From positions 1 to 24,866 of the IMG/VR virus record IMGVR_UViG_3300008107_000452: a DNA stretch of 24,866 nucleotides. The stretch is one strand, 5' to 3'. A program made the translations under genes and the position numbers. This DNA comes from a virus. Every line of letters begins with the position of its first letter. Positions within the stretch are counted from its first letter, which is position 1. Below, in pieces: positions 1-21,756 of this stretch. Below the pieces are notes generated by a model. The model did no database searches, had not been told where the DNA came from, and saw nothing but the letters and a program-made list of their open reading frames with translations.

Positions 1-378
1 TTCAAAAACTCTTGTTTGAATTTTTTTAGTACCTTCGGCGTTGGTTAATATGATTGAATTTTTAAACTTCTGCCAATTGATGACAAAAGAAGTATCTAAC
101 ACTCCACCATTTTCTTCTTTAACTAATTCGTTAAGAGCATTTATAGTGTATAATGTATTAGATTCTTTTTTTCTATGTATTAAGATTGTATTTTCCAACG
201 GAGTATCCGGTTGGAATGCTGTATCAATATTGTACGTGATGAATAATTCATCTAAATTCGCCTTATTTTGGAGAATATAAATGTAATTATAAACGATGTG
301 GTAAGTTTCACGGATTAATTGTAAAGTATTTTGTAACTCACCCTTCGTTGTAAACGTACACAAAAGTTGTGTTTTCAT
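1..378 (-). CDS. Conserved phage protein of unknown function, N-terminal part (3' end off window)
   Basis: An open frame of 126 codons begins with ATG at 376-378 and runs off the left edge without a stop, so the protein is incomplete. It starts MKTQLLCTFTTKGEL and contains LENTILIHRKKESNTLYTINAL and a GGVLDTSFVINW segment. It reads as a soluble, mixed alpha/beta protein with no signal peptide or membrane segment. From memory, similar sequences with an 'IL.HRKK..NTLYTINALN' core occur in T4-like marine phages without a known function; I could not check this. The start is supported by a purine-rich GAAGGG about ten bases upstream and by an ATATTTATA element at 409-416. It follows the large multidomain gene after a gap of 68 bases and probably has its own transcript. 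Confidence 0.75.
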   Translation of the reverse strand, partial: MKTQLLCTFTTKGELQNTLQLIRETYHIVYNYIYILQNKANLDELFITYNIDTAFQPDTPLENTILIHRKKESNTLYTINALNELVKEENGGVLDTSFVINWQKFKNSIILTNAEGTKKIQTRVFE

Positions 379-446: not shown

Positions 447-3400
447 TTATTTTGATTTTCTATCGTAAACTCCTTTAGATTCGAAGCAATTTTGCATATC
501 ATCGGACCAGTCAATTGTTGTAGATGTTGGTGATGTTGGACCATCTTTTCCTCTATATGTTTTTTTACCTACTCGCTTTCTTACACCACCTTTGGTTAGA
601 GAGTATATTATTACAACCTTTCCACTTACTTCACCATCTTCATTATATGAATATTCTTCATTATCAAAATCTAATTCAAATAAATCTTCCAACTCTCTAG
701 TATCTTCTACATCCAAACAACTTTTAATTGTATTAGCATCAACATCAAGGCCCTCCATAGTTAAATTTGTACTTCTTTTTAAGATTTGATGAATATCATT
801 TTCATCTTTAGGTTCGTTTATTTTATCTAAATGGTACAAATCATTTGCATCTCTAAAAGCAAGTAAATCACCTACCTTCTTTTTTTTGCCATTTGTAGAT
901 TTACCAACTAGTGTATTTAACTGCTTATATGTTTCGGTTTGAGTATCTAATGATTTTTTTCTTAGTTCACCCAATAGTTTTCCAGTATCTAAACTTTTTG
1001 GTATTTTTGTTTTATATTTTTTATCTAATTTGTTTGCACTAATTCCTAATGCTTTTTCAAGACTAGCTATCTTTGTTAAATCACTTTTATCTTTAACTTT
1101 TTTAGATGATAATTCTGCTAATTTATATTTGTATCTCTCATATGAAGCTGCTCTTTCAATTAGCTTTCGTTGGTCATCATTAAGTAAACTTGTATTATTT
1201 TTATTAGATGCAATATTACATAATACTCTAAGGGATGATATTGATTTTATTTTTGTTTGTCCTTTTTTTGTGTTCTTCCAATTAATAAAATTAGATACAT
1301 ATTCTATTCTACTTTGTTTAATTATTTTTTCAGAATTATTTAATGATTTTAAATCATCTGCTGCTTGTGCTTTTTCTTCATCGGTAGATGCTGATATTTT
1401 TTTATCTTTTAATGCTACTTTAAGTTTTGCAACAGTTTCATACTCAGGATATTTAGATGTAATTTCATTTAATTGTTTTTCCGCTGCTATTTCATCTCTA
1501 CTTTTCTTTCTTTTTTCACCCAACATACTTTCCATAACTATCATAGAAAAATCATCGGTATATGATGCGGCGTTTTCTTCTTTTAAATTTTTTATCTTAT
1601 TAATATTATCCTCATTTAATTTAAAATATTTTGCTGTATCATTACGCTGTGATAATTCCTTACTAAGTTGATTCATTTCGTTTGGTGTAACTTCAGAAAA
1701 ATGTTTTGCATTAACTGCAGATACAGTTTTATAATTTGCTTCAATTTCGGTAATAGCTTTTAGGTTTTCATCTAATATGGCCATTGCTTTCTGATGTGTT
1801 TTTTTATCAATTAAACCGAAACTAAGCATATCGTTTAAACGATTTTTATTTTGAATAAAATCATAATTTAAAGTTGAATTACCTTGAATATCTTTTAATG
1901 TTTTTTTATCAGAATGACCACAATAAACAACATTACCATTTTCATCAACACTCATAACAACAGTATCAGCAGCGTTTTCACCACCACCACCTGCAGCAAT
2001 CCATTCTATTAATTTTTGTTTTGGTACTTCAAATGTAATACCAGTACCTTTATCATGAATAAAACATTTACCATTTTCAGGAACAGCACTTGCAATATCT
2101 ATCATATTTTGTTTATCGCCCTTAATACCGGTTGGGGTTGTATCTAATTCAGAATTAGTTTTACCAACTTTAGTTTGAGTTCCACCAAATGTGTGAATTT
2201 TAGATGTTTTACCAAATCCTTTTTCTTGTGCATTAGTAACAGCGTCTTGTATTCTATTAAATTTAGTACGAGCACTTCTAGCCGCAATTACACAACTTTG
2301 ATAACAATCCTTACTTTTAATGTCAGGAGGAACTACTATTCGTGTCTTTCCTGAAACTTTCTTTTGTTCAGACCCCAATTTAGTTGGACAAAATTTATTA
2401 TGCATTAACCTAGCTAAATCATCTTCTGACATATCAGAGTATCTTTCTAATATTTTAACACCTTCATTTGAACCATTTTCATTGAAGCAAGAACCGGCAT
2501 TACCAGGAGCTACCCACCAAGAACCTTGAACATATCCTTTATTAAATGCTGTTTGTGCGGATGGGTTTTCAGATAATAATACAAGCTCTCCACTTTTTGT
2601 TTTAGGATATAATTCATTTTGAATCTTTTCTAATTCTTTCGGGTCTCTATTTGTATATGGATATTTTTCTTGAGATTGTTCACCATCAATAGGTTCTTCA
2701 ATTCCACCATCCATAGGTTCTTCAGTAGAAGCTGCTTTTGCTTTTGCCGTTGCTTTCTTTTGTTTACTAGTGTCAATTGTTTGTACTTTTATTTTTTTAC
2801 CTCTTGCAGTAGTTTTGTTTACAACTGCTTCAAATAAAAGATATGTCAAACTTTCATCACCTTCAATTAATACTTTTTCAACTACACTTTCAGTTGCAAC
2901 ATATTGTGCAGGCCCACCAGGAGTATCTGAGTAATATCCACCACCAATACTGTAAATTACACCACCGTCTTTTGTTGAAGGTTCTTTTGGTTCAGGTAAT
3001 TTTTCAGTTTCTTTTGGTTCTTCTTTTTTACCTTTCAACATATCATCAACTAAATCAGCATGCCCCTCACCTGCAACTACAACTGGTATTTTACCTTGTG
3101 CAGATAATTCTTTTTGTTTTTTAATAATATTAAGGTCTCTTGCTTTATTAAATGCAACCTGAACATCATTTACTCCGGTTTCTCTATCGCCATTATCTTC
3201 TGGAAATGATAATCTATATAGTGTATCTTTATCTTGTTCAGATGGATTATCCCAATTTTGTATTGGTGGGAATCCAGCTTCTTTAGCTGCATCTTGTAAG
3301 AATTGTTTACCTTCATCATCTAAAAATTTAGATGGCTTCATCGTATCAGTACCCTCACCTTGTCCAATCATACTAGCCCAATTACCAGCTTTGATTTTAC

Positions 3401-5165
3401 TTTGTGAAAGACCAGTTTGTTTCTCTTGTGATTTATATAATTCAGATTCAGGTTTGTGTACATCTAATGCATCTCCATCAAAACTATCCACACCCGCACC
3501 CATTTCTTTAAATTTTTCTTGTGCAGGTATCATTTCATCGTTGAACTCCAATTCACCACTATTACCGGTTGCACCACCTTCACCAACAAATACAATATCT
3601 TTCCATTTTTCTTTTGGTACGGTTGCTTTTACCTGATTTACAATATCATCAACCATTTTTTCGTTTCTATGAACGGTTCCAAAAAGATATCCGCCACCTT
3701 CAAATTCAATTGTTTTAATTTCTTTACCAGATTGCTCACCTTTAAATGTTTTTACATTTGATTCAGGATCAGTTTCATTTGGTTTTACTTCTGCTGCTTT
3801 TGGTTCAACTACATCTTCCTTATTAGCATCTGCTTTTTTAGCCGCTACACCCTGTTCTTCTGCAAATTGATTACACATCGGAATAGCATCTTTAATATCC
3901 TGGTCAATTACTTGCACCTTCATTGGTATTTGTGCATCCGGATGTTTTGCATTATATGCTGCAATCGCCGCCCATCTATGGTGACCATCAATTACATATC
4001 CATCTCTACTCACATAAATTGGTGCGGTAATTTTTGGATGACTAGGGTCTTCTTCTAAAGCTCCCATCATACCTACAACTTTTGGACCAACTAATTCCGA
4101 TTGAGTTGCTTTTAATTTATCAGCAGGAACTTCGGTTTGAGTTACTGTAATTCCTTTTTCTTTCAACATTTTTTTGAATAATGGTTCAGTATCTACTTCA
4201 CCATCTTTATCAACAGGCATTTCTGCTGCCGGAGTTCCAGGTTGTGGTTTACCTTTAAATTGTGGCATCTCTGCTCTTGGAATGCCTAAATTATCATCAC
4301 AATATAAGTTAGTACCAGGTACGGTAATTTGACAAAGGTTAATATTTGGTGCTTTTTCACCTTTAGCTTTTGCATCCGCAACCATTTGTTGTACCTTTGA
4401 TATATCGGTATTAAATTTATCTAAGTCTTCTTTATCAATTCCATCTGGTATATCAGATTCACCACCAAATGTATCAGGATCGGCTTCTGGTATTTCACTT
4501 TGAACATCTACCGCAGGAATTGGATTAAAATCATCTTCTGTCTTTTCAGGTTCAACTTCTTTTTCAGCTTCTTTATCTTGTTTTTCAGCATCTTTTGCCA
4601 ATTGAGCAAGAGTTTCTTTTTCTTTATCCAAACGAACACCCATTGCAGGGTCCAATTTAGGGTCAAACATTGTAGCTGCTTTTTTGATTGGGTCTTCTTG
4701 TGGAGCTTCACCTTGTTCACCACCTTTATCACTTTTTGGTTCTTCAGGTTTTTGTGGTTGATTCTGACCTCCTAAATCTTTATTAAGTGAATCTCTTTCA
4801 TCCGAACCTTCTGGTGGAAGTAATCTTTCTGCTGCTTTTCTTCCAGGATGGTCTTTTGGTAATCTTAAAAGATTTCCAACTAAACCTTCGGTATCTTCTC
4901 CCTTTGCGTTTTTATATTTTACGGTTTTATTTAATATAGGATTTTTGAAAGTACCTTCTGCTTCTTTAACATACTTTTCCGGTGTCTTTCCTTTCTCAGT
5001 CAATAAGTTTTCAATTAACTGATTTTTAATATGAGATAACCCCATTTCAGAAAGTACAATACCCAACTCTTTTAAGTGGGTTGGGTTCTTTGGGTTTGGC
5101 ATTCCATTATCAACTCGGAAAGCCCATTCAGAAAGAATTTCATTAATTAATTGAGATACATTCAT
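447..5165 (-). CDS. Very large multidomain phage protein (1572 aa) with ParB-like and possible TraB/GumN-like modules
   Basis: No signal peptide or membrane segment is visible. Residues 1-45 form a compact start (LINEILSEWAFRVDNGMPNP). Residues 50-260 are a charged, Pro/Glu/Lys-rich linker. Residues 345-440 resemble the ParB/sulfiredoxin nuclease fold: YVSRDGYVIDGHHRWAA at 384-400 has the DGHHR signature. Residues 475-712 carry GTVH (496-499), IVFVGEGG (524-531) and VVVAGEGH (695-702), spaced like TraB/GumN/Tiki-type proteins (weaker call). Residues 860-1100 are Cys-containing and unrecognised. Residues 1130-1450 are Lys-rich and helical, and the last 120 residues are acidic. It starts six bases after the nuclease stop, so the two are probably cotranscribed. 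Size and mosaic make-up suggest a virion-packaged or polyprotein-like effector. That role is inference; the reading frame is certain. Confidence 0.7.
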   Translation of the reverse strand: MNVSQLINEILSEWAFRVDNGMPNPKNPTHLKELGIVLSEMGLSHIKNQLIENLLTEKGKTPEKYVKEAEGTFKNPILNKTVKYKNAKGEDTEGLVGNLLRLPKDHPGRKAAERLLPPEGSDERDSLNKDLGGQNQPQKPEEPKSDKGGEQGEAPQEDPIKKAATMFDPKLDPAMGVRLDKEKETLAQLAKDAEKQDKEAEKEVEPEKTEDDFNPIPAVDVQSEIPEADPDTFGGESDIPDGIDKEDLDKFNTDISKVQQMVADAKAKGEKAPNINLCQITVPGTNLYCDDNLGIPRAEMPQFKGKPQPGTPAAEMPVDKDGEVDTEPLFKKMLKEKGITVTQTEVPADKLKATQSELVGPKVVGMMGALEEDPSHPKITAPIYVSRDGYVIDGHHRWAAIAAYNAKHPDAQIPMKVQVIDQDIKDAIPMCNQFAEEQGVAAKKADANKEDVVEPKAAEVKPNETDPESNVKTFKGEQSGKEIKTIEFEGGGYLFGTVHRNEKMVDDIVNQVKATVPKEKWKDIVFVGEGGATGNSGELEFNDEMIPAQEKFKEMGAGVDSFDGDALDVHKPESELYKSQEKQTGLSQSKIKAGNWASMIGQGEGTDTMKPSKFLDDEGKQFLQDAAKEAGFPPIQNWDNPSEQDKDTLYRLSFPEDNGDRETGVNDVQVAFNKARDLNIIKKQKELSAQGKIPVVVAGEGHADLVDDMLKGKKEEPKETEKLPEPKEPSTKDGGVIYSIGGGYYSDTPGGPAQYVATESVVEKVLIEGDESLTYLLFEAVVNKTTARGKKIKVQTIDTSKQKKATAKAKAASTEEPMDGGIEEPIDGEQSQEKYPYTNRDPKELEKIQNELYPKTKSGELVLLSENPSAQTAFNKGYVQGSWWVAPGNAGSCFNENGSNEGVKILERYSDMSEDDLARLMHNKFCPTKLGSEQKKVSGKTRIVVPPDIKSKDCYQSCVIAARSARTKFNRIQDAVTNAQEKGFGKTSKIHTFGGTQTKVGKTNSELDTTPTGIKGDKQNMIDIASAVPENGKCFIHDKGTGITFEVPKQKLIEWIAAGGGGENAADTVVMSVDENGNVVYCGHSDKKTLKDIQGNSTLNYDFIQNKNRLNDMLSFGLIDKKTHQKAMAILDENLKAITEIEANYKTVSAVNAKHFSEVTPNEMNQLSKELSQRNDTAKYFKLNEDNINKIKNLKEENAASYTDDFSMIVMESMLGEKRKKSRDEIAAEKQLNEITSKYPEYETVAKLKVALKDKKISASTDEEKAQAADDLKSLNNSEKIIKQSRIEYVSNFINWKNTKKGQTKIKSISSLRVLCNIASNKNNTSLLNDDQRKLIERAASYERYKYKLAELSSKKVKDKSDLTKIASLEKALGISANKLDKKYKTKIPKSLDTGKLLGELRKKSLDTQTETYKQLNTLVGKSTNGKKKKVGDLLAFRDANDLYHLDKINEPKDENDIHQILKRSTNLTMEGLDVDANTIKSCLDVEDTRELEDLFELDFDNEEYSYNEDGEVSGKVVIIYSLTKGGVRKRVGKKTYRGKDGPTSPTSTTIDWSDDMQNCFESKGVYDRKSK

Positions 5166-5171
5166 AATTCA

Positions 5172-5780
5172 TTAAAATTTATGGTCAGCTGGTTCACATA
5201 TCATTTCTAATTCGTCCCAATGAAATTTTGGTTTTTCATTTAGAAATACAAAACATTTCCATTTATTTGATTTTTCAAAGTAAACGTGTTTTTGTAAATG
5301 TGATGGGATTGCTGCCCCAGTTGGTACTCTTTTAACAGGAGTATCAAAGAAAGTTTTTATTAAAACGGTGATTGGTTCTACATCATCCCACTTACGAATT
5401 TGTTCTTCTAACATTCTCCACTCACCTCTATTAAGATATTGATTTTGCATTATTGAATTTAAGTATGAAAACGTCTGCTTCAAATTCACTTCATTATCAG
5501 AGAACGTTGCTGCAGGTGCTCCATGTCCTTTATCGTAAACATTTCCTTTATAATCTTCACCATCCGAAGTTTTGATTCCTTTTTCAGTATAGAAATCCAT
5601 ATGACCTCTATTAACGTTTGTAGGTCTATTAGTTGAACGATACTTAATGATTAGGGGTTGTTCCAACGATTGTGAATAAAGTATATCAAACACTTCATTC
5701 TTAACTCTCACATCAGGTAGTTGTGCAAATGTTACTACCGAAATCAATAAAAACGATAAAAGGAACGTTACTTTCTTCAT
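5172..5780 (-). CDS. Exported DNA/RNA non-specific endonuclease (NUC1 / Serratia nuclease family)
   Basis: A 202-residue protein. Residues 1-19 are a clear signal peptide (MKK, a long hydrophobic core, then TFA before Q20), so it should leave the cytoplasm. The catalytic core matches the Serratia nuclease pattern: YDKGHGAPA at 82-90 supplies the general-base His86, and LNRGEW at 116-121 supplies the metal-binding Asn117. MLEEQ at 123-127 supplies Glu125, the same eight-residue step as Asn119 to Glu127 in the Serratia enzyme. The usual DRGH motif is DKGH here. The family cuts DNA and RNA without sequence preference using Mg. The frame is open upstream to 5846, but that start would overlap the polymerase gene and bury the signal peptide, so I chose 5780. 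A promoter-like element lies at 5805-5812. A phage nuclease sent to the periplasm or outside is unusual. Confidence 0.85.
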   Translation of the reverse strand: MKKVTFLLSFLLISVVTFAQLPDVRVKNEVFDILYSQSLEQPLIIKYRSTNRPTNVNRGHMDFYTEKGIKTSDGEDYKGNVYDKGHGAPAATFSDNEVNLKQTFSYLNSIMQNQYLNRGEWRMLEEQIRKWDDVEPITVLIKTFFDTPVKRVPTGAAIPSHLQKHVYFEKSNKWKCFVFLNEKPKFHWDELEMICEPADHKF

Positions 5781-5804
5781 ATTATAGCATATTTTTGTAT
5801 ATAC

Positions 5805-5818: not shown

Positions 5819-7099
5819 TTAGAGGTTTCCGTAATCCTTTCCCCAACTAGCTTTGACAGGAAACCCACCTTCTTCAATTATCACTTTCAATCCTTTAATC
5901 ATCTCTTTATCCACATCAGTAGGTACATCAAAAAGAAACGAGTCATAAGTGTAAAGATTTAGTGTAATTCCACTTCCTTTAATATACTCCAATATTCTTA
6001 CCATCTTATCCACATTCATTTCAGTTTCTACCGCTTGTAGTAGATAGTTAAATACTTTTTGTGGGTTTGGTTGTTCAATCCACTCCAAAGGAATAATACG
6101 ATGGGGTGTTTGTAAGTACCCCAGCTTTTGTGTTTCAATCCATAGGTTATCAATATAATCAGCTACGGCGTTGAAGTATGGAATTTGGCGGAAATCATCA
6201 TCAATACCACCATATAATAATTGGAACGTAACCCCTTTGGATTCCTCAACACTACATCCATATTGGTCAGCTAACCATTGGTGTACGTTACCATCCGGCA
6301 TTTGGAATTTAACCAACTTACCAATAAGACGAGGGTGATACGCATTGTAGTCCATTTGTAGGAATATACCATCCGAAACAAAACAATCTCTACTACCATC
6401 CGATTTATTCAATGCAGCATAGTTTACACCACCATGACGATTAGATGGACGACCTGTTATCGTAAATGGATTGTATTCGGTATATACCATATCTCCTTTT
6501 AAGTGTTTCTGGGCTTGGGGCCATCTATCAATGAATTTTTCCGCTACGACCCGAATCCCAAATCGTTCAATATCTGAAAGGGTAGGTAGGAATGTATCGT
6601 TGTACCAATTATAGGTTTTAGTTTTTTCTCTCCTATGTTTTTTTAATTCCGGTTCTATCACTTCCGCAAGTTTAAGAATGGGAATAGATTGAATGATGTC
6701 TTCTTTGTAACCTTTGTGTAATAAAGGAGCTACTAATTGTTGTAGTGGTTGAGAGTAGTCTATCGTTTCTCCGGTTTTAAGAAAATGCGCCGTATCAACA
6801 TCATTCAATCCTTCCCTAACATTTAGAGATTGTAGTAGCTTTTTCTTTTGGAATACCCACTTTTCTCCATTGGTATTCAAAACACCCTCTATTAGTGATT
6901 TAGAGAGTGACAGCGCATCAGTATGTTTATGTGGTAGAATATACCTATCTTCCACAGTTCGTACAAATATAAAGGAGATATCGGTGTTTAATGGGTGTTT
7001 GTCATTATCTACCCAAAGTGGATACCAAATGGATATTTCGTTTTCCAATCTTTCCTTCAATTCATTCAACTCACCAATATTTTCCACTATTCTTATCAT
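5819..7099 (-). CDS. Compact, divergent family A (PolA-type) DNA polymerase, 426 aa
   Basis: Polymerase palm and fingers motifs of family A are in order. TITGRPSN (213-220) matches the T-GRPSS region. Motif A is QMDYNAYHPRLIG (248-260) with catalytic Asp250. Motif B is KGVTFQLLYGG (288-298), with Lys288, Phe292 and Tyr296 spaced as K758/F762/Y766 of Klenow. FNYLLQAVETE (350-360) fits the N..Q...E helix, and motif C is YTYDSFLFDV (383-392) with Asp386. The first 170 residues look like a degenerate 3'-5' exonuclease domain without the DxE active site; there is no 5' nuclease. Differences from Klenow: the steric-gate Glu710 position is His255, the Arg754 position is Val284, and the motif C Glu883 position is Ser387. 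It overlaps the upstream small gene by 29 bases. It probably synthesises phage DNA, though its place among late genes is odd. Confidence 0.85.
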   Translation of the reverse strand: MIRIVENIGELNELKERLENEISIWYPLWVDNDKHPLNTDISFIFVRTVEDRYILPHKHTDALSLSKSLIEGVLNTNGEKWVFQKKKLLQSLNVREGLNDVDTAHFLKTGETIDYSQPLQQLVAPLLHKGYKEDIIQSIPILKLAEVIEPELKKHRREKTKTYNWYNDTFLPTLSDIERFGIRVVAEKFIDRWPQAQKHLKGDMVYTEYNPFTITGRPSNRHGGVNYAALNKSDGSRDCFVSDGIFLQMDYNAYHPRLIGKLVKFQMPDGNVHQWLADQYGCSVEESKGVTFQLLYGGIDDDFRQIPYFNAVADYIDNLWIETQKLGYLQTPHRIIPLEWIEQPNPQKVFNYLLQAVETEMNVDKMVRILEYIKGSGITLNLYTYDSFLFDVPTDVDKEMIKGLKVIIEEGGFPVKASWGKDYGNL

Positions 7100-7408: not shown

Positions 7409-7781
7409 TGGTGGAGATGACCGGACTCGAACCGGTGTCTTACGAAGTAATCATAATACCAGCTTTTCACACGTTTAGGATAAGGTTTAATCTTATTCAC
7501 CTTCCAAAATAATTGGGGCCGAATGGTTAGTTCAGCGCTTCCACCAACCGATTTAGAGTTTCGGTAAACTTAATGTTCACTTCTTTTTAAATTCCACGAG
7601 TGATGCGGAAGGGATTAGGCTGCTACAGCGTAATCAGCACCAATGAATGACATTACATCATCAAAGGTCCAAGTAGATAATTCTACGTCAGTTATTGTTT
7701 TGTACAGATTTAAAGACATCTAGCACTTCTGTCTACGTGTGATACTATGCTTCTCATCGCAATCAATTCCAAAGCATCCCC
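7409..7781 (-). ncRNA. ssrA: Phage-encoded tmRNA (ssrA)
   Basis: A complete 373-base transfer-messenger RNA, which rescues stalled ribosomes and adds a degradation tag. The 5' end GGGGATG (7781-7775) pairs with CATCTCC (7419-7413) and includes the G3-U70 wobble that makes alanyl-tRNA synthetase charge it. A discriminator A and CCA are encoded (7412-7409). The T arm is ACCGG-TTCGAGT-CCGGT. TTTGGAATTGATTG matches the conserved D-loop region. CATAGTATC pairs with GGTATTATG and ACACG with CGTGT to form the long helix 2. Pseudoknot 1 (7735-7702) is foldable: AGAC with GTCT, and GTGC-AGAT with ATCT-GTAC. The resume codon GAC is 12 bases after it. The RNA lies between tail genes and has its own promoter and terminator, so it belongs to the phage. 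No SmpB gene is visible; host SmpB is presumably used. Confidence 0.93.
7615..7689 (-). other. tmRNA tag reading frame (24 codons plus stop)
   Basis: From GAC (7689-7687) to TAA (7617-7615) the frame encodes 24 residues, starting DVELSTWTFDD and ending GADYAVAA. With the alanine carried by the tmRNA, the tag would be 25 residues. The end YAVAA resembles the usual YALAA signal read by ClpXP-type proteases. The resume codon is set by the 12-base distance from pseudoknot 1 and by the context AATAACT before it, comparable to E. coli AATAGTC before GCA. Common tags have about 8 to 15 encoded residues. Confidence 0.85.
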
Positions 7782-8206: not shown

Positions 8207-11014
8207 TTATTTAGATACTTGTTGTCTATATTGTCCAACAACTTCGGTAACCCACTTACTATCTTGAATATCATGCTCAACCTGCACTACTTGAAAGAAT
8301 CCATTTTTTTCATACTTTTCCGGAATACCTTTTATAACAAAAGTATCACCTCTTCTAATTCCACTTTTTCCAAAAATTTTAAAAGAATATTTTATTGGTA
8401 ATAAGTGTGAAGTTTTCATTGCCCCAGGATATGATTCAAATGCTTCATTTTTTATAATATCAAATAGTTGTGGGTCATCACAACAATAAATTTTAAAATT
8501 TTTATTAAATTCGGTAAAATTATTATTTAAATTTCCCAACACAGCAGGAACAATTATATTAACATCTGGATTTGGTACGATATTAATCTTATCCAAATTT
8601 GTGGTTAATGTGGTTGCCTGCGTATCTAATTCAATATCTTTAAGTGTTTTTATTTTATCAGCAAGATATTTTAATCTAGCGCCTTCTGGAGTAGCTTCGT
8701 AATATACAGTTTCTCTCGGGTCAAGAATTCCCAACCATTCTCCTAAAGAACGTCCTGCGCTTTGACTCAAATCTACTTCCATAACCAATTCACCTTTTGC
8801 ATTACGCCATCCAATAAACTGCGTATAACTTCCTAGTGGGTCATTTACATTTGGAATAATACCAGTATCACTTTTTACTAAAGTTTGTTCAATTGTATCA
8901 TAGTAAGTTTCTGCTTCAGTTTTTGTTTGAGGGTCAACTTCAAAAGCCACTTTATTTGGGTCTGGTTTTGTTTTTGCAAGTTTTTCCTTACTATTTTCAC
9001 TATTTATACTATCCACATCAATTGCTGATAAAAATTTATCTTTTTTATTTGAAAATAGGCCACCAACATCAATGTTTTTAGAATCAGGATTAACTGAATA
9101 CATTTTTCCGGATTCCGGTTTTTTTGTTTTTGTATTGTAAGTTATAGATTCTCTTTTTAAAATAATTTGGTTAGTCATTTCAGATGGAATATCAATATCT
9201 AAATTTGCTTCTAAAAATACCGATGCCGCTCCACTATGTGCGAATGTTCTAACAGGTTTACTAGAATCTCTATATCCAGTCCAGTTTTCATCTATTATTT
9301 GCAATTCTACCGAATCTCCAATTTGTTGTTCTATAATTTGAAAATTCCAAAATGAATTTACAGCACTGGCCATTTCGTTTAATATTTCTAATAAAACGTC
9401 TCTAATAGATTTGTTATTTGAATTTATTATTGCATTTTTAAATACTTCATAGTTTACATACAAGTGTTCCAATTTTCCATAATATCCAGGTAGTTCAAAG
9501 AAACCATTGTAACTTGATTTTTTAACACTAGCTGGTGGTATTTCTTCATATTGTACGAAAGACATCCAACCCTGTTTTACAGTTTCTTTACCGGTTGCAC
9601 TATCAACTACCCACATATCCGCATTAATTGAATTATCTATTTCAGAATTAATAAGGTCTCTATAACTTACAGTTTCGGTTGTACAATATAATTTATAAAA
9701 ATCAGGCATTTTACCTGGTATTAAAAGCTTTGATGGTCTTGTTGAAAACATTTTTGGAAACGCACCAATAAAACTTCTTGGATTTATTCTACATTTAACA
9801 TTTTTACCATTGTATTTATAAGATATCAATCCATTATTTGCATTTAATATTTTTATTGCATATCCAAGGTTGATATATTGGTTATTTGATATAAATTTTT
9901 CTTTTGGTACTTTAAAGCCCGCAATGTTTATTTCAGCCGATGTACTTTCAAAATGACTTTTTATTGTAGATTTAACTACATAATCAAAATTTATAAAATT
10001 AAACCAACCTAAATTATTTTTTCTATTACCAGCTTCTTCAATAATATTTGTTTTAACTTCTGGTATTTGTTTGCTTGATGGTAAATTATTATAAAGCCAT
10101 TTAGCTCTCCTCAATCCCAACGTCTCATTTACATCTCCTGTTGTTATTGATACATCGGCTGCACTATATGTCTGTGTCGCTGGTGTATCTCTTACTTGTG
10201 TACCGATTTTTTTACCACTCGCATCATATGTAGTTCTTAATTCTAATATTGGATATTGAAGTTGTAAAAACGTTGGAAGACCCGGCATACCTCTCAGTTT
10301 TATAGTCAATGTATAAGAGTCATTATCAGCCGATGTAAATGAGCCACCCACTATAAAGCCTAAAAACGAATCATAATCACCATCAGCGGCCACTCTAACT
10401 CTATGGAGATTATTATAGTCTAAATTTTTTGCAGTTATATCCTGCACCATACCTTCACCTTTAGAAGTATTAATTAATTGACTTAATCCTTTTTCAGTAT
10501 TTAATCCCCATTCCACACATAGAGTATATCCAGGTTCCATCACATATTCTTGCAATCTTTCAGCCTGAGAAAGTGAAAAACATTTTATCGTAAGTTCACA
10601 TACTCTTGAAATTTGGTCTTTACCTTCTTTTACACTCAACCCAGTTATTATCGGATGTGGTCTTAAAACCAATTCACCAAGTGTTTCATTTGCTTTTCCA
10701 AATACAGGTCTACCACTCCAATCAATTCCTACTTGTGCAGCAGTTGTACCATTACCATATAAAGATGCAATATAGTTATATCCTATTATTTTATTATTAC
10801 TATCAAATATTGGTGTACCCGGATTAGCAGTGACTGGCATATCTGGATTTGAAAATAGCACTAATCCATTCCCCACTCCGGAAATAATTCTTACCCAAGC
10901 AGTTAAGTTTGATGCTGCTGTTGATTTTTGTAACCCATTTAACAATCCATCACTAATAGTTGTTATAGAATCATAAATTGGTTTTTCTATTGTTGTAAAT
11001 AAAGGATATGCCAT
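8207..11014 (-). CDS. Large baseplate hub protein (gp27/late-control D-like), 935 aa
   Basis: The region 115-170 (ELVLRPHPIITGLSVKEG, then ISRVCELTIKCFSLSQAE and EPGYTLCVEWG) reads as a tail-hub beta barrel of the kind that interacts with the tube end. The C-terminal 85 residues, with IKYSFKIFGKSGIRRGDTF, IPEKYEKNGFFQVVQVEH and WVTEVVGQYR, match the closing pattern of hub proteins of the gp27/gpD/VgrG type, where a last beta domain ends in W-T-V...R. The central part is long and unrecognised; no lysozyme motif is seen. It lies directly after the LysM wedge gene (five-base gap). In T4 the hub forms a trimer at the base of the tube. Hub identity is inferred from motif and context. Confidence 0.65.
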   Translation of the reverse strand: MAYPLFTTIEKPIYDSITTISDGLLNGLQKSTAASNLTAWVRIISGVGNGLVLFSNPDMPVTANPGTPIFDSNNKIIGYNYIASLYGNGTTAAQVGIDWSGRPVFGKANETLGELVLRPHPIITGLSVKEGKDQISRVCELTIKCFSLSQAERLQEYVMEPGYTLCVEWGLNTEKGLSQLINTSKGEGMVQDITAKNLDYNNLHRVRVAADGDYDSFLGFIVGGSFTSADNDSYTLTIKLRGMPGLPTFLQLQYPILELRTTYDASGKKIGTQVRDTPATQTYSAADVSITTGDVNETLGLRRAKWLYNNLPSSKQIPEVKTNIIEEAGNRKNNLGWFNFINFDYVVKSTIKSHFESTSAEINIAGFKVPKEKFISNNQYINLGYAIKILNANNGLISYKYNGKNVKCRINPRSFIGAFPKMFSTRPSKLLIPGKMPDFYKLYCTTETVSYRDLINSEIDNSINADMWVVDSATGKETVKQGWMSFVQYEEIPPASVKKSSYNGFFELPGYYGKLEHLYVNYEVFKNAIINSNNKSIRDVLLEILNEMASAVNSFWNFQIIEQQIGDSVELQIIDENWTGYRDSSKPVRTFAHSGAASVFLEANLDIDIPSEMTNQIILKRESITYNTKTKKPESGKMYSVNPDSKNIDVGGLFSNKKDKFLSAIDVDSINSENSKEKLAKTKPDPNKVAFEVDPQTKTEAETYYDTIEQTLVKSDTGIIPNVNDPLGSYTQFIGWRNAKGELVMEVDLSQSAGRSLGEWLGILDPRETVYYEATPEGARLKYLADKIKTLKDIELDTQATTLTTNLDKINIVPNPDVNIIVPAVLGNLNNNFTEFNKNFKIYCCDDPQLFDIIKNEAFESYPGAMKTSHLLPIKYSFKIFGKSGIRRGDTFVIKGIPEKYEKNGFFQVVQVEHDIQDSKWVTEVVGQYRQQVSK

Positions 11015-11019
11015 ATATT

Positions 11020-11301
11020 TTAAATATTCGCTTGTAATATATTACGATAGTTCACAGGTATTCTTAAAACGATTCCAGGCTTTAATCCAATCGGTGCATC
11101 GTGAATATTATTTGCTTCCGCAATAATCCACCATAAAGAAGAATCATTGTAAAAAGTAGATGCTATAATATCTAATCTATCTCCTATCGTTGTTCGTATA
11201 TAGATATCATTTACATCTTCTGGTATATTTGCCATTAGTTTGGAAACATATACTTCTTTTCCACCAGTATTATATTTTATTCTATCATTTATATATCTCA
11301 T
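11020..11301 (-). CDS. LysM-type baseplate wedge protein (gp53/Afp7-like)
   Basis: 93 residues. The segment TTIGDRLDIIASTFYNDSSL through WWIIAEANNIHDAPIGLKPG to VLRIP is a LysM-like fold as found in T4 gp53 and the small LysM proteins of contractile injection systems: G-D-R-LD-A-YxD, WWxIA, N, PGxxLxIP. These proteins link baseplate wedges or the hub to the wedge rather than bind peptidoglycan. The position between a baseplate protein and the hub fits. The gene overlaps nothing and is 11 bases from its upstream neighbour. Confidence 0.85.
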   Translation of the reverse strand: MRYINDRIKYNTGGKEVYVSKLMANIPEDVNDIYIRTTIGDRLDIIASTFYNDSSLWWIIAEANNIHDAPIGLKPGIVLRIPVNYRNILQANI

Positions 11302-11312
11302 ATATTAATATT

Positions 11313-12983
11313 TTAATATCCTCTTGCAGGCCCAATCGTTGGAGTACCAAAAGCTGGAGTTCCACGTAATTGTTGCATTTGTTGAACATATATATTAACT
11401 TGTCCAAATTGTGTCTTTCTAATACCAATACCCAATCCCTGTTCACCTTTTTGTCCATATATTGCACCTTCTCGTGCCCTAGCATTATTAATAGCTTGCT
11501 CTTGGGCAGCCAGTGTCATACTAGCTTGTTTATTTTGCTTTAAAACGTTTAGGTTATCTTCTACTTTTTTCTGGGCAGCTGCACCATCTAGCGTTTTTTT
11601 GATTTTTTTAGTATTTGCAACATTCATCTGCATCAAAGAATTTGCTTTTACTGTATTTCTAAGATTATCTTGTGATATTGTTATCGTACCTGGATTAAGT
11701 AAACTGTTGTTATTTTCTGTTTTTTTAGGTGGTGGCGTGATTGTTAAATTTCCATTTGTAATAGTCCAACTACCACCTTGTTGTTCAATATCATTAAGTA
11801 CAGCTGCTACTCTTTGTCTCTTATCATCATTTTCATCTATACCCGCAGCAAGCTTATCTTCTGCACGATTAACCACATTAATATCTCTAATTATATCATC
11901 AATTGGTTCTATTAACCACGCTACTGTGGTTGATATTGGGCTGTTCCAGAAGTTGAATTTGGATTTACTTTCTACTTTTTCACCACCACCAACTTCACTC
12001 GCCTTTAAAAGTTTATTTTCCCAAAAATTACCTTGTTCTACTTTTTCAGAATGTGGATTTGCATATACAGGAACTTCAATATGTACAGGAGGACGTGTTG
12101 AATCTATAATATTTCCTGATTCTACTGATGTTGTTAGTGTTAGTCCGGTTGTAGGAAGTACAACATTATTATCACCATGTGTTCCAGGTGATGAATTTGC
12201 ATGATTTGTAGCACCATGTCCTAAATCACCTACATGTTTATTTATTTGTGCATCATGTGAATTATTATGCGAATCATCTCCAAACAACAATTTTTTTGGT
12301 GCATAATAGAATGTGGCTAATGTTCCTTCTTTTTCTGCTCTAGAAAATGCATTTATTATATAAGGATTGAGTTTTATTACATTGGCCGGGTTGTCACCTA
12401 TTGGTAATTTAATATCAAATTTACCCTGGAGCTTATGTACCCATTCCGCACTTTCAACAAACATTTTTCCAACTTTACCACTATGTTCTACTTTATGCAT
12501 AATTTTGTTAAAAGGAGAATAAGTGATTGTAGTAGGCTTTCCATAGTTTCCTATCACCGTATATGCCAATGAAGCACCTATACTTTTATCTTGATTTCTT
12601 GCATCAGCAAATGTTAATATACCTCTACCAGCTAAAATTGCACCCATAGCATACGGGTTTTTTGTTGCAATACTATATGAAATTTCTTTAAGTATTCTAA
12701 TATTCATTTCTTCTTGCAACTCAGCTACCCCTCCCTTATCATAAAGGCCTTTATCATGACCGGTTTTTGTTTCTATATAAACTTTACCAGCAGATTCAGT
12801 ATCATCCGCATAAACAACATGATTAATTTGAAAAGTTTCATTTTCCGAATTTTCGGATAGCTTGTGACCAGTTTTTCCTTTTCCTAAATCTTCACGTTTA
12901 ATATTATTGGATTTTTTTGGAGTTTTATCTCCAACACCAGATTTATTAGGAACACCACCACTATAATCGTTTACGTTTGACAT
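11313..12983 (-). CDS. Baseplate-region structural protein with His/Asn-rich linker, unknown
   Basis: 556 residues with no recognised domain. The first 50 residues are polar and probably disordered. Residues 55-230 look like a folded beta/alpha part with GAILAGRGILTFADA. Residues 236-272 are a low-complexity stretch rich in His, Asn, Gly and Asp with six histidines. Residues 340-400 contain a hydrophobic patch (TTVAWLIEPIDDIIRD), and residues 440-500 are helical and Gln/Asn/Lys-rich, followed by a Gly/Pro-rich tail. It stands between the gp48/54-like and LysM genes with gaps of 11-12 bases, so it is very likely part of the baseplate, but I do not recognise the family. Confidence 0.65.
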   Translation of the reverse strand: MSNVNDYSGGVPNKSGVGDKTPKKSNNIKREDLGKGKTGHKLSENSENETFQINHVVYADDTESAGKVYIETKTGHDKGLYDKGGVAELQEEMNIRILKEISYSIATKNPYAMGAILAGRGILTFADARNQDKSIGASLAYTVIGNYGKPTTITYSPFNKIMHKVEHSGKVGKMFVESAEWVHKLQGKFDIKLPIGDNPANVIKLNPYIINAFSRAEKEGTLATFYYAPKKLLFGDDSHNNSHDAQINKHVGDLGHGATNHANSSPGTHGDNNVVLPTTGLTLTTSVESGNIIDSTRPPVHIEVPVYANPHSEKVEQGNFWENKLLKASEVGGGEKVESKSKFNFWNSPISTTVAWLIEPIDDIIRDINVVNRAEDKLAAGIDENDDKRQRVAAVLNDIEQQGGSWTITNGNLTITPPPKKTENNNSLLNPGTITISQDNLRNTVKANSLMQMNVANTKKIKKTLDGAAAQKKVEDNLNVLKQNKQASMTLAAQEQAINNARAREGAIYGQKGEQGLGIGIRKTQFGQVNIYVQQMQQLRGTPAFGTPTIGPARGY

Positions 12984-12995
12984 TTGCCTAAATTA

Positions 12996-15038
12996 TTAAA
13001 ATGTATCTGGTTTTACCGAAACAGCACCATTTGGAGTCATAGCCATTGGTGAACCCCAGTCAACTCCTTCGGTAATATATCCATAACTATAAAGTTTGCC
13101 CATCGTTCCTCTACTTTCTAAGAATTTAAGTGAAACTTCTGCATTAATTATCATAGGTAATTTAAAACCTTCACCACTTATATCTGGATCAACAACACTT
13201 ATATTTCCCGCCAAACCTGGAAATTGTATTGGTTTAGAGTTTAATAATTTTTTATTAAGTCCAATTTCCCAAGGGGTATCAACGTCAACCGTAAAAGTTA
13301 AACTATCAATAACCGCCTCTCTACCCTTATACATGTCTCCTAATGTAAATTTAATTATTGGGGGAGCAACCGCACCAACTTGACCTTTAAAATCTTGTGG
13401 CATCGTTAATCCCGCTAAAGCGTTCAATCTTTGCCATGCGTTCTGATGTTCGACTAAGTTCAAAGAAAATATTTTAAAACTAAATGTCAAACTTCTTTCA
13501 ATACCACTATATGTGTAGAATGGGAATGGATTTCCTAAAAATTTATTAGGCTCCCACTCCGGTGAAAAAGTTTCTGACAATTCGGATACCGTACATCTGA
13601 ATTGAACTGTTCTATCTAATGCAATTGAATAAAATTTTAATGGAATCGTATCAAAATCATCAAATGTTTTATCTGGATTATCAGCAGTTACAGCAGTTTC
13701 CCCAGCATATGTAATATTTGATGATAAGTTTAAAACATCACCTTTTGTACTCATTCCTCTTCTTGAAAAAAGAGTATTTTCATTAGTTAGTTTAAGTGCC
13801 GGATTAACATCTTCTTTGTTGATTAATTCCATCAATTCTTTACCATAATCTGGATTATCCACATCCTCAATGATATCTACTTCATCAATACCTCCAGTTC
13901 CTTCATTTGGAATATAATTCGTACCTACTTTTTTAGGCAATGTCTTTGGTGGTAATTTTGCTCCAGAAGCTTTTAAATATTCCGCTCTTCTTCGGATTCC
14001 CATTGCCTTTAATCCAATCTGTTTATCCAATGGTTTAAGTTCATCAAGTTCAGCTGCTTTAGAATAAGGTGTTGTACTTGACCAAGGTGTAAACGGTCTT
14101 CCTTCTTGTTGTGAAAATCCCGTTTGTGCACTTTTATTTTTATTAATTTTTTTACTAAGTAAAGCGTTTACTCCTTTTGTTATAAGTTTAGAAACTCCTT
14201 TTGAAATAAAACTTTTAACAATTGATGTAGCAGTTCCAATTAAAAAATCTTTTGATTGAGATAATGCGTTTGTATTTGATTTTAATATATTTTGAATAGC
14301 GTTTGGAACTTTACCTGAACTAGCTAATTGTAATAACGCTTTATTTCTATTATATTCGTGTGCAAATAGTAATGTATCTTTTGGTTTTTTATTTCCAATT
14401 GATGATTTTTCTTTTAATCCTCTACTATTAAGTTCTTCCGCAACTTTTGAAGGTATCATTGGCATTGGAAACAACGCACCTTTAATACTATCAGTTGCAC
14501 TTATTGCCAATTCAGTTCCCAATGCAACTAAATCAGGTTTTGGCGGTAATGCATCTTTTCCTTTTTTACCGGCAAAAATATTGTTTAAATAATCACCCGC
14601 AACATTCGCAACAGCATCACCAATTTTATCACCAAGACCTCCTGATATATTTTGGTTTGTATGTCTTTTTTGAAAAGATACCGTACGAGTTCTTCCATTT
14701 ACAATTCTAAAAATATCCCCACCATATATAGTAGGTCTTGTTAATACTGAAAACTGTTTTAATCCAACCTGGTCTTGCTCTACAAATGATTCACTATAAG
14801 CATCACTATATTTCTTTCTTCTTTCATTAATTTTTTCAATAAAATCAAACCCATTGATAATATCTCCAATCAATCCATTTTTTTGAGTTTGATTAATTTT
14901 TTTAAGCAAGAAGTTAGAAGAACCAATAGGTAAATCTTTACTATTTCTAATGGCGTATGCAACTTCCGCCGTTTTTCCGGCATTTGGACCTTCTGATATT
15001 ACTTTGGTCTTAAATAATTCTTCTAAAGTTGTTGCCAT
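12996..15038 (-). CDS. Baseplate/tail-tube junction protein (gp48/gp54-like), 680 aa
   Basis: The last 230 residues give the clue: DTIPLKFYSIALDRTVQFRC, then RSLTFSFKIFSLNLVEHQNA, WQRLNALAGLTMPQ, PPIIKFTLGDMYKGREAVID and SLTFTVDVDTPWE. This order of 'R.ltFsFkvf', 'W.RlN.L.gl..P', 'PP.i..T.Gdm' and 'SL...vd...WE' is that of tube-initiator proteins at the baseplate, such as T4 gp48/gp54 relatives. The first 400 residues hold a Lys-rich region with several short hydrophobic helices (about 265-295) and are not recognised. The gene directly follows the tape measure, as 48 and 54 follow 29 in T4. Identity is inferred from both motif and order. Confidence 0.6.
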   Translation of the reverse strand: MATTLEELFKTKVISEGPNAGKTAEVAYAIRNSKDLPIGSSNFLLKKINQTQKNGLIGDIINGFDFIEKINERRKKYSDAYSESFVEQDQVGLKQFSVLTRPTIYGGDIFRIVNGRTRTVSFQKRHTNQNISGGLGDKIGDAVANVAGDYLNNIFAGKKGKDALPPKPDLVALGTELAISATDSIKGALFPMPMIPSKVAEELNSRGLKEKSSIGNKKPKDTLLFAHEYNRNKALLQLASSGKVPNAIQNILKSNTNALSQSKDFLIGTATSIVKSFISKGVSKLITKGVNALLSKKINKNKSAQTGFSQQEGRPFTPWSSTTPYSKAAELDELKPLDKQIGLKAMGIRRRAEYLKASGAKLPPKTLPKKVGTNYIPNEGTGGIDEVDIIEDVDNPDYGKELMELINKEDVNPALKLTNENTLFSRRGMSTKGDVLNLSSNITYAGETAVTADNPDKTFDDFDTIPLKFYSIALDRTVQFRCTVSELSETFSPEWEPNKFLGNPFPFYTYSGIERSLTFSFKIFSLNLVEHQNAWQRLNALAGLTMPQDFKGQVGAVAPPIIKFTLGDMYKGREAVIDSLTFTVDVDTPWEIGLNKKLLNSKPIQFPGLAGNISVVDPDISGEGFKLPMIINAEVSLKFLESRGTMGKLYSYGYITEGVDWGSPMAMTPNGAVSVKPDTF

Positions 15039-15051
15039 GTATTATTTTATT

Positions 15052-17463
15052 TTATCCTCTTTGTCCATAACTAAACACATTTCTAGACGATTCGTCTACG
15101 GATGTTGCAATACCAGATGAAACTCTATTACCATCCAAATATGCGGTTGTTCTTATTTTACCAGAATTCATATCCTGTCTTAATTGTTTCATTTCATTAA
15201 CCAAAACTTTTATAGCACCATTCATAGATGTACCACCGCCTACTGCCGCAATAGGACCTACACTACTTTTGTTAGCAGCATCTAATTGTCCTAAAATATC
15301 CGGACCTACTGCGATTTGGTCATTTCTACTAGTTTCAAAAATACCACCTTCAGAAGTTGCAATTGTAGTTGAACCGCCAGAACTTTGAGCTTGCATAGCC
15401 ATATCTCCTACTTTTTCCGCTCTACCAAGGTATCCCATCAAACCACCAATCGCAACACCGGCTGCAATAACTCCAATAGCTCCCCATTTCGCATTACCTG
15501 CAAAAATACTCGCAATAGCCTCTTTTGTTTTCATAATTGCTGTCTTTTTACTCAAAAGATACATTGCAGTTAATCCACCAATAATTGCAGGGAATAAACC
15601 TGGAATTTTATTTAAAGCCCCAAATACCGCACCAAACATATTAGCAAGTGTAGTAACAAGTGGTGTGACCGCTTCTATTAATGGAACAAACCCAGATGAA
15701 AGTGCCGCAACTATTCCTTTGAATGAATTTTCTAATTGTGTTATTTTATCTGCAATTTGTTCTTGTGTTTCTAACTCTTTTACTTTTGCTGCAAGTTGTT
15801 GTTCATTCATATTGGTTATATCTAACCCCTTATCCATTGCAGTTTCTACCAATTTCTTTTGAGAATCAGACATATGTGTAAGTTTCTCTTGCATCAATAG
15901 TTGTTTACCCAATTCTTCAACTGTCATATTAGTTGCATCTGCAACTGCCTGCTTTGTTATTGGGTCCATATCAGCAAACTTCCTATATCTTTGAACTTGT
16001 CTAAGTATTTCAGCTTGTGCGTCTGCTGCTTTCCCATCAAATGCCAATGCTCTTGCTTTACTTAAATTGAACTGTCCAGCTAACATTGAAGATGCTAACA
16101 ATTCTTTTTCTATACCTTCTTCAAAATTTAAAAGTCCTTCGGTTGTTTTTAATACACTTTTTAAGTTTGTACCTAATCTTCTTGCTTGAATTGCCTGTCT
16201 AGCTAATAGAGTTACATCACCTCTAAAGTATTTGTATGTATCTTCGGAAGCTTCTGAAATATCTTCAAAAACTTTAGCAGGTGCTACTCCAACTTGGTCT
16301 GATAAATATGCTACCTGTTGCGCTAGGTTTTGAGATGTTTCCGCACTCAATCCACCTATACTTTGGAAAGCCATATTAACAGCTGCTGCATCTTTTTCTG
16401 CAACGGCAAAGTTTTTATTTAAAACAATCATTGATGCCGCAACTGCTTCTGAAAATTTAACAGTATCACCAAACTCCGTTTTAAGAGCTTTCACCGTTTC
16501 ATAATAGTCATCCGCAGTAACACCTAATTTAGCATAGTTTTTGTATATACTATGCACTTGATGATTTAGTTCTTCGGTTTGATTTTTTGTTAGGCCAGTT
16601 TCTTCTCTGAATTTCTTAGCTGCAGATTGCATTTGTGAAAATTCATGAATAGCCGCTGCTAATAATCCGCCTAAAATAACAATTGGACCCAATCCATTGA
16701 TTATTCCTTTTGCCAAATCGCCTATACCCGTTACAATGCTTTGAATTCCTTCTGGCAAACTCGCAACTATTCCACTCATTTGCTGTTTTAACTCAACAAT
16801 TCTTTCTTGTTGTTTAGTTAATTTCTCATTTACCGCAAATACTTGTTCTGCAATTTTTCTATCTTCTTCACTTAATCCTACGATTGAAGTTTCAAATTCC
16901 ATTCTCCTTCTCGCAGCTTCACTCATTCCAAATAAATCTTGTGATTCACTTACTAATGATTCTGCAGAATCTATTTGTGATTGTCTTATTTGTTCTAAAA
17001 CAGTTCTTCTTGCCTGTAAATTTTTTCTTTCATCATCTGATGCATTTACTTCTGCTTTTTTTAATTCAAGTATTTTGGCTGTAATACCCGCAAATGCACT
17101 ACTATTTTTGGTTGAGGATGTAAGAACTTTTTTTACATCGTTACCTAATTTTGTAAAAGAGGTTTGAAACCCTTCTACCATATCTAGATATTCTTCCTGT
17201 CTTTCTCCTGCTTGCTCCCAAAACTTTACATAATCTTTTGCCTTATCTTCAATATCATCAAACGCTTCTAATTTATCTTCTAAAGTTTTTAAATTTTCTT
17301 CGTCCTGTTCATTTCTTTTTTTAAGACGCTTGATTTCCTCTTGCCCAGCAACAGCCATTCTCTTATTTCGTTCCTCAATTCTTTGTTGAATCAGGTCTTG
17401 CTCTTTTAAGAGATTTTTTTGAGCTTCTAATTCTTCAGATGATAAATTTCTAACGTCTGCCAT
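15052..17463 (-). CDS. Tail tape measure protein, 803 aa
   Basis: The first 230 residues are almost entirely charged coiled coil. A hydrophobic helix at about 252-272 (GIINGLGPIVILGGLLAAAI) is followed by a long helical region rich in Ala, Gln and Glu (VTADDYYETVKALKTEFGD). A hydrophobic stretch at 602-680 has several possible membrane helices. The end is soluble (KVLVNEMKQLRQDMNSGKI). This layout, coiled coil with membrane helices near the end, is typical of tape measures, which set tail length and help DNA cross the membrane. It follows the tail chaperone-like genes and precedes the gp48/54-like gene, as expected. At about 800 residues it predicts a tail of moderate length. Confidence 0.85.
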   Translation of the reverse strand: MADVRNLSSEELEAQKNLLKEQDLIQQRIEERNKRMAVAGQEEIKRLKKRNEQDEENLKTLEDKLEAFDDIEDKAKDYVKFWEQAGERQEEYLDMVEGFQTSFTKLGNDVKKVLTSSTKNSSAFAGITAKILELKKAEVNASDDERKNLQARRTVLEQIRQSQIDSAESLVSESQDLFGMSEAARRRMEFETSIVGLSEEDRKIAEQVFAVNEKLTKQQERIVELKQQMSGIVASLPEGIQSIVTGIGDLAKGIINGLGPIVILGGLLAAAIHEFSQMQSAAKKFREETGLTKNQTEELNHQVHSIYKNYAKLGVTADDYYETVKALKTEFGDTVKFSEAVAASMIVLNKNFAVAEKDAAAVNMAFQSIGGLSAETSQNLAQQVAYLSDQVGVAPAKVFEDISEASEDTYKYFRGDVTLLARQAIQARRLGTNLKSVLKTTEGLLNFEEGIEKELLASSMLAGQFNLSKARALAFDGKAADAQAEILRQVQRYRKFADMDPITKQAVADATNMTVEELGKQLLMQEKLTHMSDSQKKLVETAMDKGLDITNMNEQQLAAKVKELETQEQIADKITQLENSFKGIVAALSSGFVPLIEAVTPLVTTLANMFGAVFGALNKIPGLFPAIIGGLTAMYLLSKKTAIMKTKEAIASIFAGNAKWGAIGVIAAGVAIGGLMGYLGRAEKVGDMAMQAQSSGGSTTIATSEGGIFETSRNDQIAVGPDILGQLDAANKSSVGPIAAVGGGTSMNGAIKVLVNEMKQLRQDMNSGKIRTTAYLDGNRVSSGIATSVDESSRNVFSYGQRG

Positions 17464-17476
17464 TTATCTTACAACT

Positions 17477-17710
17477 TTATTTTATGATTCCAGCTTTTTG
17501 CAAATATTGATAAATGTCTGGATTTCTTTTTTTAACTTTTTCTAAATAATCTTCTGCCTGAGCATTAATATCATCAATTTCATCCTGTAATTTACTTAAT
17601 ACAGGATCATTATCTATTACTTGTTGGAGTTTTTGTGGTGCTTTCTTACTCGTAAACAATCCCCAAAATTCCATTATGTTACTTTCTGATATTTTGTATT
17701 TCTTTGCCAT
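17477..17710 (-). CDS. Small protein upstream of the tape measure, unknown
   Basis: 77 residues, mostly helical: an N-terminal helix with NIMEFWGLFTSKKAPQKLQQ and a second acidic coiled coil (LSKLQDEIDDINAQAEDYLE) ending in YLQKAGIIK. No signal or membrane segment. It sits 13 bases before the tape measure and behind its own terminator-promoter pair (17758-17788 and 17737-17744), so it heads a tape measure transcript. Size, charge and place suggest a tail assembly helper or a tail tip component. I do not recognise the family. Confidence 0.7.
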   Translation of the reverse strand: MAKKYKISESNIMEFWGLFTSKKAPQKLQQVIDNDPVLSKLQDEIDDINAQAEDYLEKVKKRNPDIYQYLQKAGIIK

Positions 17711-17736
17711 TTTATATTATTTACACTTATTCAAAC

Positions 17737-17744
17737 TATAAATA
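17737..17744 (-). promoter_or_regulatory. ATATTTATA element upstream of the 77-aa gene
   Basis: The minus strand reads TATAGATATTTATAGTTTG. The first T of TATTTATA is 34 bases before the start codon, and the element directly follows a strong terminator. The core is identical to the copy at 409-416. Confidence 0.55.
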
Positions 17745-17749
17745 TCTAT

Positions 17750-17788
17750 AAAAAGAAAAAGTTAGGATTATCGTTTAATCCTAACTTT
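17750..17788 (-). terminator. Rho-independent terminator overlapping the gp51-like stop codon
   Basis: The minus strand has a perfect 13-base stem, AAAGTTAGGATTA (17788-17776), a five-base loop, then TAATCCTAACTTT (17770-17758), followed by TTCTTTTT. The TAA stop of the 55-codon ORF is the first three bases of the right arm, so a translating ribosome would open this hairpin. Confidence 0.85.
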
Positions 17789-17935
17789 ACTAGCATTTGA
17801 AGACCTTTGTGCTTTTTTATTCTCTTCAGCTTCTCTTTTTTTAGTTTCTATCAATTTATTATAATAAAACATTCTCAAATATGTTGGCATTTTATATAGT
17901 TCCATCATTGTAAAACCATTACTATATTCAACCAT
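17768..17935 (-). CDS. Small gp51-like tail assembly chaperone (55 aa or frameshift extension)
   Basis: A 55-residue ORF from ATG 17935 to TAA 17768: MVEYSNGFTMMELYKMPTYL, then RMFYYNKLIETKKREAEENK and a basic tail. The pattern MPTYLRMFYYNKLIE...K..E resembles the short second parts of tail chaperones (T4 gp51 position; T domain of lambda gpGT), from memory. The frame stays open upstream through HSYNLHTQIFE and GLPKN to the T7 run at 17984-17990 inside the gp26-like gene, and closes at a TGA just before it. It may therefore be made as a fusion by frameshifting rather than from its own ATG, which lacks a Shine-Dalgarno sequence. The order gp26-like, gp51-like, tape measure is that of T4. Confidence 0.6.
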   Translation of the reverse strand: MVEYSNGFTMMELYKMPTYLRMFYYNKLIETKKREAEENKKAQRSSNASKVRIKR

Positions 17936-17963
17936 CTCAAAGATTTGAGTGTGTAAATTATAA

Positions 17964-18728: not shown

Positions 18729-18752
18729 AACTTTGTTTATTTAGTTTATATA

Positions 18753-18760
18753 TATAAATA
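18753..18760 (-). promoter_or_regulatory. ATATTTATA-like element upstream of the gp26-like gene
   Basis: The minus strand reads TGTATTTATATATATAAAC. The first T of TATTTATA is 32 bases before the start codon. It follows the terminator at 18785-18818, so it should open a new transcript. Confidence 0.5.
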
Positions 18761-18784
18761 CATTAAATTAAAAAAATTGAAAAT

Positions 18785-18818
18785 AAAAAAGGGATACTTT
18801 TTGGGTATCCCTTTTTTT
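18785..18818. terminator. Bidirectional rho-independent terminator after the tail tube gene
   Basis: The stem GGGATAC (18791-18797) pairs with GTATCCC (18805-18811) around a seven-base loop, with six A on the left and seven T on the right. It can stop transcription in both directions, and it closes the sheath-tube transcript 16 bases after the tube stop. Confidence 0.9.
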
Positions 18819-18833
18819 ATATTTGTTTGAATA

Positions 18834-19337: not shown

Positions 19338-19360
19338 GTTTCTTTCCTTTTAATTTATAT

Positions 19361-19369: not shown

Positions 19370-19390
19370 TCTATTTAGTTTGTTTTCATA

Positions 19391-21718: not shown

Positions 21719-21756
21719 TTTATTTCTCCGATTTGATTTTTAATAGTGGTATTTGT

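Follow-up and report, generated by a model that had tools for sequence, protein, structure and literature searches.

In 2024, Yutin et al. gave the name divPolA1 to a divergent PolA found in 14 phages, which also carry a regular polymerase, of family A, B or C (PMC11348598). The thumb of divPolA1 is truncated and its exonuclease inactivated, and from genomic context the protein was assigned a probable role in replication (Yutin et al. 2024, PMC11348598). Gene 1 of phage immuto_3-5A is a named member (PMC11348598); in the literature, we met the name divPolA1 in Yutin et al. 2024 and its preprint only. Two further groups serve for comparison. As published, the divPolA2 of barbaviruses (AUR84708) likewise lacks a thumb and is an additional PolA of phages that encode another polymerase, and TV-Pol (Iyer et al. 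2008, PMC2579912) is described as having a two-helix thumb module and RxxxK fingers.

Here, we describe a polymerase gene in a 24,866-base IMG/VR record, analyzed over its whole length and called the window below; IMG/VR records are fragments. The open reading frame lies on the minus strand, starts with ATG, is bounded exactly by positions 5819 and 7099, and encodes 426 amino acids (aa). The features of the window are as follows.

1-378, minus strand: 5' part of im2, a gene of about 140 aa, cut by the window start
447-5165, minus strand: 1572-aa protein, with a phrog_2859 segment at residues 272-451
5172-5783, minus strand: DNA/RNA non-specific endonuclease (PF01223, E=3e-18) with an apparent signal peptide
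5819-7099, minus strand: divPolA1 gene, encoding a degenerate exonuclease-like N-terminal domain, almost no thumb, a palm and shortened fingers
5939-5947, minus strand: motif C, Y385-D386-S387
6212-6250, minus strand: O helix, with V284 (R754 position), K288, F292 and Y296
6335-6352, minus strand: motif A core, D250-Y-N-A-Y-H255, with the catalytic Asp and the invariant His at the E710 steric-gate position
6440-6457, minus strand: T215-G-R217-P-S-N220, ahead of the palm, with R217 as the R668 equivalent
7409-7781, minus strand: complete tmRNA gene (Rfam RF00023, E=3e-25)
8207-24716, minus strand: T4-like contractile tail region (baseplate, gp19-like tail tube, tail sheath, tail fibre)

A preliminary description had presented the 426-aa product as a PolA-like protein with clear palm motifs in which three usual active-site residues are replaced by H255, V284 and S387, and this account holds. 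Motif A reads LQMDYNAYHPRLIG, the O helix CSVEESKGVTFQLLYGG and motif C LYTYDSFLFD; motifs A, B and C and the two catalytic Asp residues are those of a PolA palm fold. In a search of the PDB with a profile built from 64 relatives, Klenow matched at E=5e-10, pairing H255 with E710, K288 with K758, F292 with F762, Y296 with Y766, Q355 with Q849, D386 with D882 and S387 with E883, in an alignment that spans the polymerase part only and not the exonuclease-like N-terminal region, where motifs II and III found no confident alignment. MAFFT alignment with Escherichia coli PolA gave the same residue pairs and placed V284 opposite R754, so that the two alignments confirm the equivalence of H255, V284 and S387 to E710, R754 and E883 of E. 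coli Pol I. The motif interiors are ungapped in both, and at the sequence level no neighboring Glu or Arg is close enough to shift into the vacated positions. The exonuclease-like N-terminus likewise has no DxE in residues 1 to 160, as originally noted. The Pfam family PF00476 was matched by 43 of the 64 relatives at E<=0.1 and was not reached by the window protein searched singly. Against six relatives, dN/dS of the gene is 0.12 to 0.16; the gene is under purifying selection.

Structure prediction, which the preliminary description had proposed, yielded a confident PolA-fold model. Two features were overlooked there: the near-absent thumb, which shows in the alignment and in the helices of the model, and the shortened fingers. 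The AlphaFold2 model (pLDDT 95.4, pTM 0.92) matches Bst Pol I with a Z score of 27.5 over 403 aligned residues (root mean square deviation [rmsd] 3.9, 17% identity). Counted from the conserved Gly of IERxG to the conserved Arg of TGRxSN, the thumb span is 36 residues (G181 to R217) versus 124 in E. coli (G544 to R668), and the equivalents of Y766 and Q849 in the fingers are 59 residues apart versus 83. The protein therefore lacks almost all of the thumb and some of the fingers, about 88 and about 24 residues, respectively, relative to E. coli PolA. The two proteins share the palm fold and the equivalents of D705, D882, R668, K758, F762, Y766 and Q849; in contrast to E. coli PolA, the window protein has His for E710, lacks R754, E883 and DxE, and thus combines the canonical family A palm with the loss of the steric-gate Glu, the O-helix Arg and a complete thumb.

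The window protein belongs to divPolA1, which large tailed phages carry as an additional, accessory polymerase of the family A type. It matches immuto_3-5A gene 1 by tblastn at E=5e-40, and the two proteins join in one alignment and tree, the phylogenetic placement that had been called for. The earlier suggestion of a separate PolA lineage is therefore correct in that the lineage is distinct, but the lineage is not new, being the divPolA1 of PMC11348598. We took immuto as the reference because LR796625 and MK892584, two divPolA1 reference genomes, were not among the matches of our phage-collection search. A relationship to divPolA2 was rejected (hhalign against AUR84708, probability 0.3%, E 0.21). 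TV-Pol is set apart by its description: the window protein has a reduced thumb and has not kept the Arg of RxxxK.

The 14 published genomes are only a small part of the family: a profile search of IMG/VR confirmed at least 587 stretches. Close relatives of the window gene account for 110 IMG/VR stretches and the immuto branch for 312, the E-values of the related-locus search being relative to the candidates. The relatives that have names are the Flavobacterium phage immuto, the Microcystis phage Mel-JY01 and LR756508 (484 kb). A few relatives lie on contigs binned mostly as Bacteroidota; from these MAG bins and two isolates, we infer that the carriers are mainly phages of Bacteroidota.

Like immuto_3-5A gene 1 (QQO91919), with which it is homologous from end to end at 26 to 27% identity, the window protein has a truncated thumb and no DxE, and in both lineages divPolA1 is a second polymerase encoded upstream of replication genes. 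The lineages differ in that the window clade accompanies PolB, whereas immuto_3-5A has a full-size PolA. At the R754 position, the window clade has Val or Ile and immuto Tyr; in motif C, the window has Ser and immuto Ala. Unlike immuto, the window also has genes for a nuclease and a giant protein between divPolA1 and im2, and a tmRNA gene upstream.

Several observations concern these neighboring features. The tmRNA gene, just upstream of the polymerase gene, encodes a 24-aa tag ending in ADYAVAA; ARAGORN placed a tmRNA a short way upstream in 34 of 35 window-clade loci and in none of seven outgroup loci, with several loci having a different, shorter predicted tag that was possibly misread. The endonuclease gene comes after the polymerase gene, and the immuto replication region also has an EndoG-like gene. 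No Pfam match was obtained for the 1572-aa protein, whose phrog_2859 segment reads like a ParB-type DGHHRWAA motif and whose relatives vary strongly in length (1412, 743 and 373 aa). Several tail-region proteins of 500 to 900 aa matched no family. Positions 18607 to 36971 of the immuto locus hold the 7-deazaguanine DNA modification genes QueC, QueD, QueE, FolE, DpdA and QueF; DpdA acts after synthesis and therefore gives no reason for an altered polymerase.

Among 66 representatives under 80% identity, the three changes behave very differently. His255 is present in all 66, as are D250, D386, F292, Y296 and Q355, and K288 is present in 65, the remaining sequence having an X. At the R754 position, by comparison, there are 53 Tyr, 6 Val, 5 Ile, 1 Thr and 1 Gln, and at the E883 position 36 Ser and 30 Ala. 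Since the search patterns partly included the His, two controls for bias were made. The residue is present in all 21 representatives outside the motif-A search pattern and in 39 of 39 members reached through the neighboring gene im2, which rules out search bias as the source of its invariance. Two of 29 members reached through im2 have Arg at the R754 position, where Pro also occurs; the site is unconstrained, and the missing Arg is no lineage trait. Little can be read from the loss of the second motif-C acid, since the regular PolA of the immuto phage has HDQ in motif C although it retains the other Glu and Arg. This leaves the His as the one fixed signature. Of the changed fidelity, sugar or base selection that the preliminary description had raised for all three replacements, a sequence-based case is thus plausible only for the invariant His.

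Relatives on longer records have a separate replicative polymerase and a linked replication and recombination operon, both of which the preliminary description had overlooked; the window fragment itself has neither FEN nor a replicase. Separate PolB, PolA or PolIII was found in 12 of 14 long relatives, each of which has one divPolA1: PolB in nine, with PolIII alpha additionally in one of these, and full-size PolA in three (open frames of 778 to 791 aa). The search found no other polymerase in the remaining two, G005 and G006. These records stop roughly 9 and 16 kb past divPolA1, no farther out than where PolB is located in relatives (about 15 to 21 kb). A role as the sole replicative polymerase was rejected, given another polymerase in most long relatives. 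Priming is already provided for, as a DnaG-type primase is encoded by five records across the family (immuto, Mel-JY01, LR756508 and two IMG/VR relatives). One of the five has a divPolA1 85% identical to that of the window; no such primase was found in the 207-kb contig G002. An argument for a primase role from the lack of any other primase was accordingly discarded.

The operon has a recurrent order: divPolA1, im2, gp32-like single-stranded DNA-binding protein (SSB), UvsX, FEN and DnaB. The window reaches only the start of im2, and the replication genes downstream are seen in relatives. In 35 representatives with 7 kb downstream, im2 was always present, clearly downstream in 30 and abutting divPolA1 in 5. 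Those of the other genes that were found all lay downstream on the same strand (SSB, 29/29; UvsX, 28/28; FEN, 27/27; DnaB, 24/24), and a single FEN-type 5'-3' exonuclease per record was found in this arrangement in 13 of 13. Conversely, divPolA1 was present at all 36 im2 loci with 5.5 kb upstream. Among 50,697 phage records, exactly six contain im2, and these are the six with a clear divPolA1 (four immuto, LR756508 and Mel-JY01). One im2 example (L284:1106-1531, minus strand) has the core HRKKxSNxxYTINxLN. The im2 protein matched no PHROG or Pfam family beyond weak matches. Its model is confident (pLDDT 90); comparison with the PDB gave Z scores no higher than 6.4, over a common ferredoxin-like half, and comparison with BFVD matched one phage protein, so that no match was informative.

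The active site of divPolA1 keeps the residues of the chemistry, and the part that grips duplex DNA is missing. Judging from sequence and model, we favor an accessory polymerase that resembles Pol I and acts distributively, in gap filling or on Okazaki or recombination intermediates, a reading to which we give about an even chance. divPolA1 would actively copy DNA templates, adding only a few nucleotides each time it binds, because it has no thumb and no proofreading, and SSB, UvsX or im2 would hold it on DNA. With the separate FEN, it would cover the tasks that E. coli Pol I performs with fused parts, filling the gaps left by primer removal or recombination, and bulk synthesis would be left to the PolB, PolA or PolC replicase. 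Like E710, the invariant His most likely still makes contact with Y296 and the sugar, with selectivity somewhat relaxed. Against the favored reading, that this invariant residue is His and not Glu suggests a specific task beyond mere relaxed selection. We infer the division of labor between divPolA1 and FEN from gene order alone. The true partner could instead be UvsX or DnaB, and the gaps could instead be filled by the host's own Pol I.

Another possibility is that divPolA1 extends D-loops, with UvsX and gp32 setting up the invasion and divPolA1 starting synthesis before the replicase. The order divPolA1, im2, gp32, UvsX in all long enough representatives agrees with this, as does the varying kind of regular replicase. 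In T4, however, the replicase itself extends from recombination D-loops, and the present evidence does not separate D-loop extension from gap filling; we regard the former as unlikely. Lesion bypass by a translesion or mutator polymerase is quite improbable. It would draw on the absence of DxE proofreading, on an altered O helix and gate, with the R754 position unconstrained, and on the effect of E710 on fidelity in Klenow (PMC4882331). Against it, the active-site pocket is conserved near-strictly, and the linked genes are those of replication and recombination, with no linkage to lesion-repair genes seen.

Synthesis of RNA or of mixed RNA/DNA, by a PolA-derived primase or RNA polymerase, also appears very doubtful. 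Motif C of divPolA1, with DS, resembles that of T7 RNA polymerase, but the His is bulky and T7-type RNA polymerases have a small residue at the steric-gate position. Moreover, the PDB profile matches at E<=1 include no RNA polymerase, and the five records with a DnaG-type primase speak against a priming task. Also in favor of RNA synthesis is the replacement of E710 in every member, the Glu that, going by the title of Astatke 1998 as cited in PMC4882331, reportedly blocks rNTPs in Klenow. Altered sugar choice enters a further reading that we consider just as doubtful, in which divPolA1 and im2 would form a two-protein polymerase, im2 replacing the thumb and the His making the enzyme rNTP tolerant or a mixed-sugar polymerase. 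If true, this enzyme would serve one replication step, for example joining recombination with lagging-strand priming. Finally, the missing thumb and DxE motif and the three changed active-site residues could mark a catalytically dead scaffold or regulator. We consider this highly improbable, as members below 80% identity all retain both catalytic Asp residues and the Lys, Phe, Tyr, Arg and Gln.

The word "steric" is absent from the divPolA1 paper (PMC11348598), and it appears that neither the invariant His at the sugar-sensing position nor the strict linkage of the partner gene has been noted previously. The protein would make testable what a family A polymerase can achieve with almost no thumb and a His for the steric-gate Glu, and strict co-occurrence names im2 as its candidate cofactor. 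Large phages with a replicase of their own retain this minimal second polymerase under strong constraint, whatever the family of that replicase.
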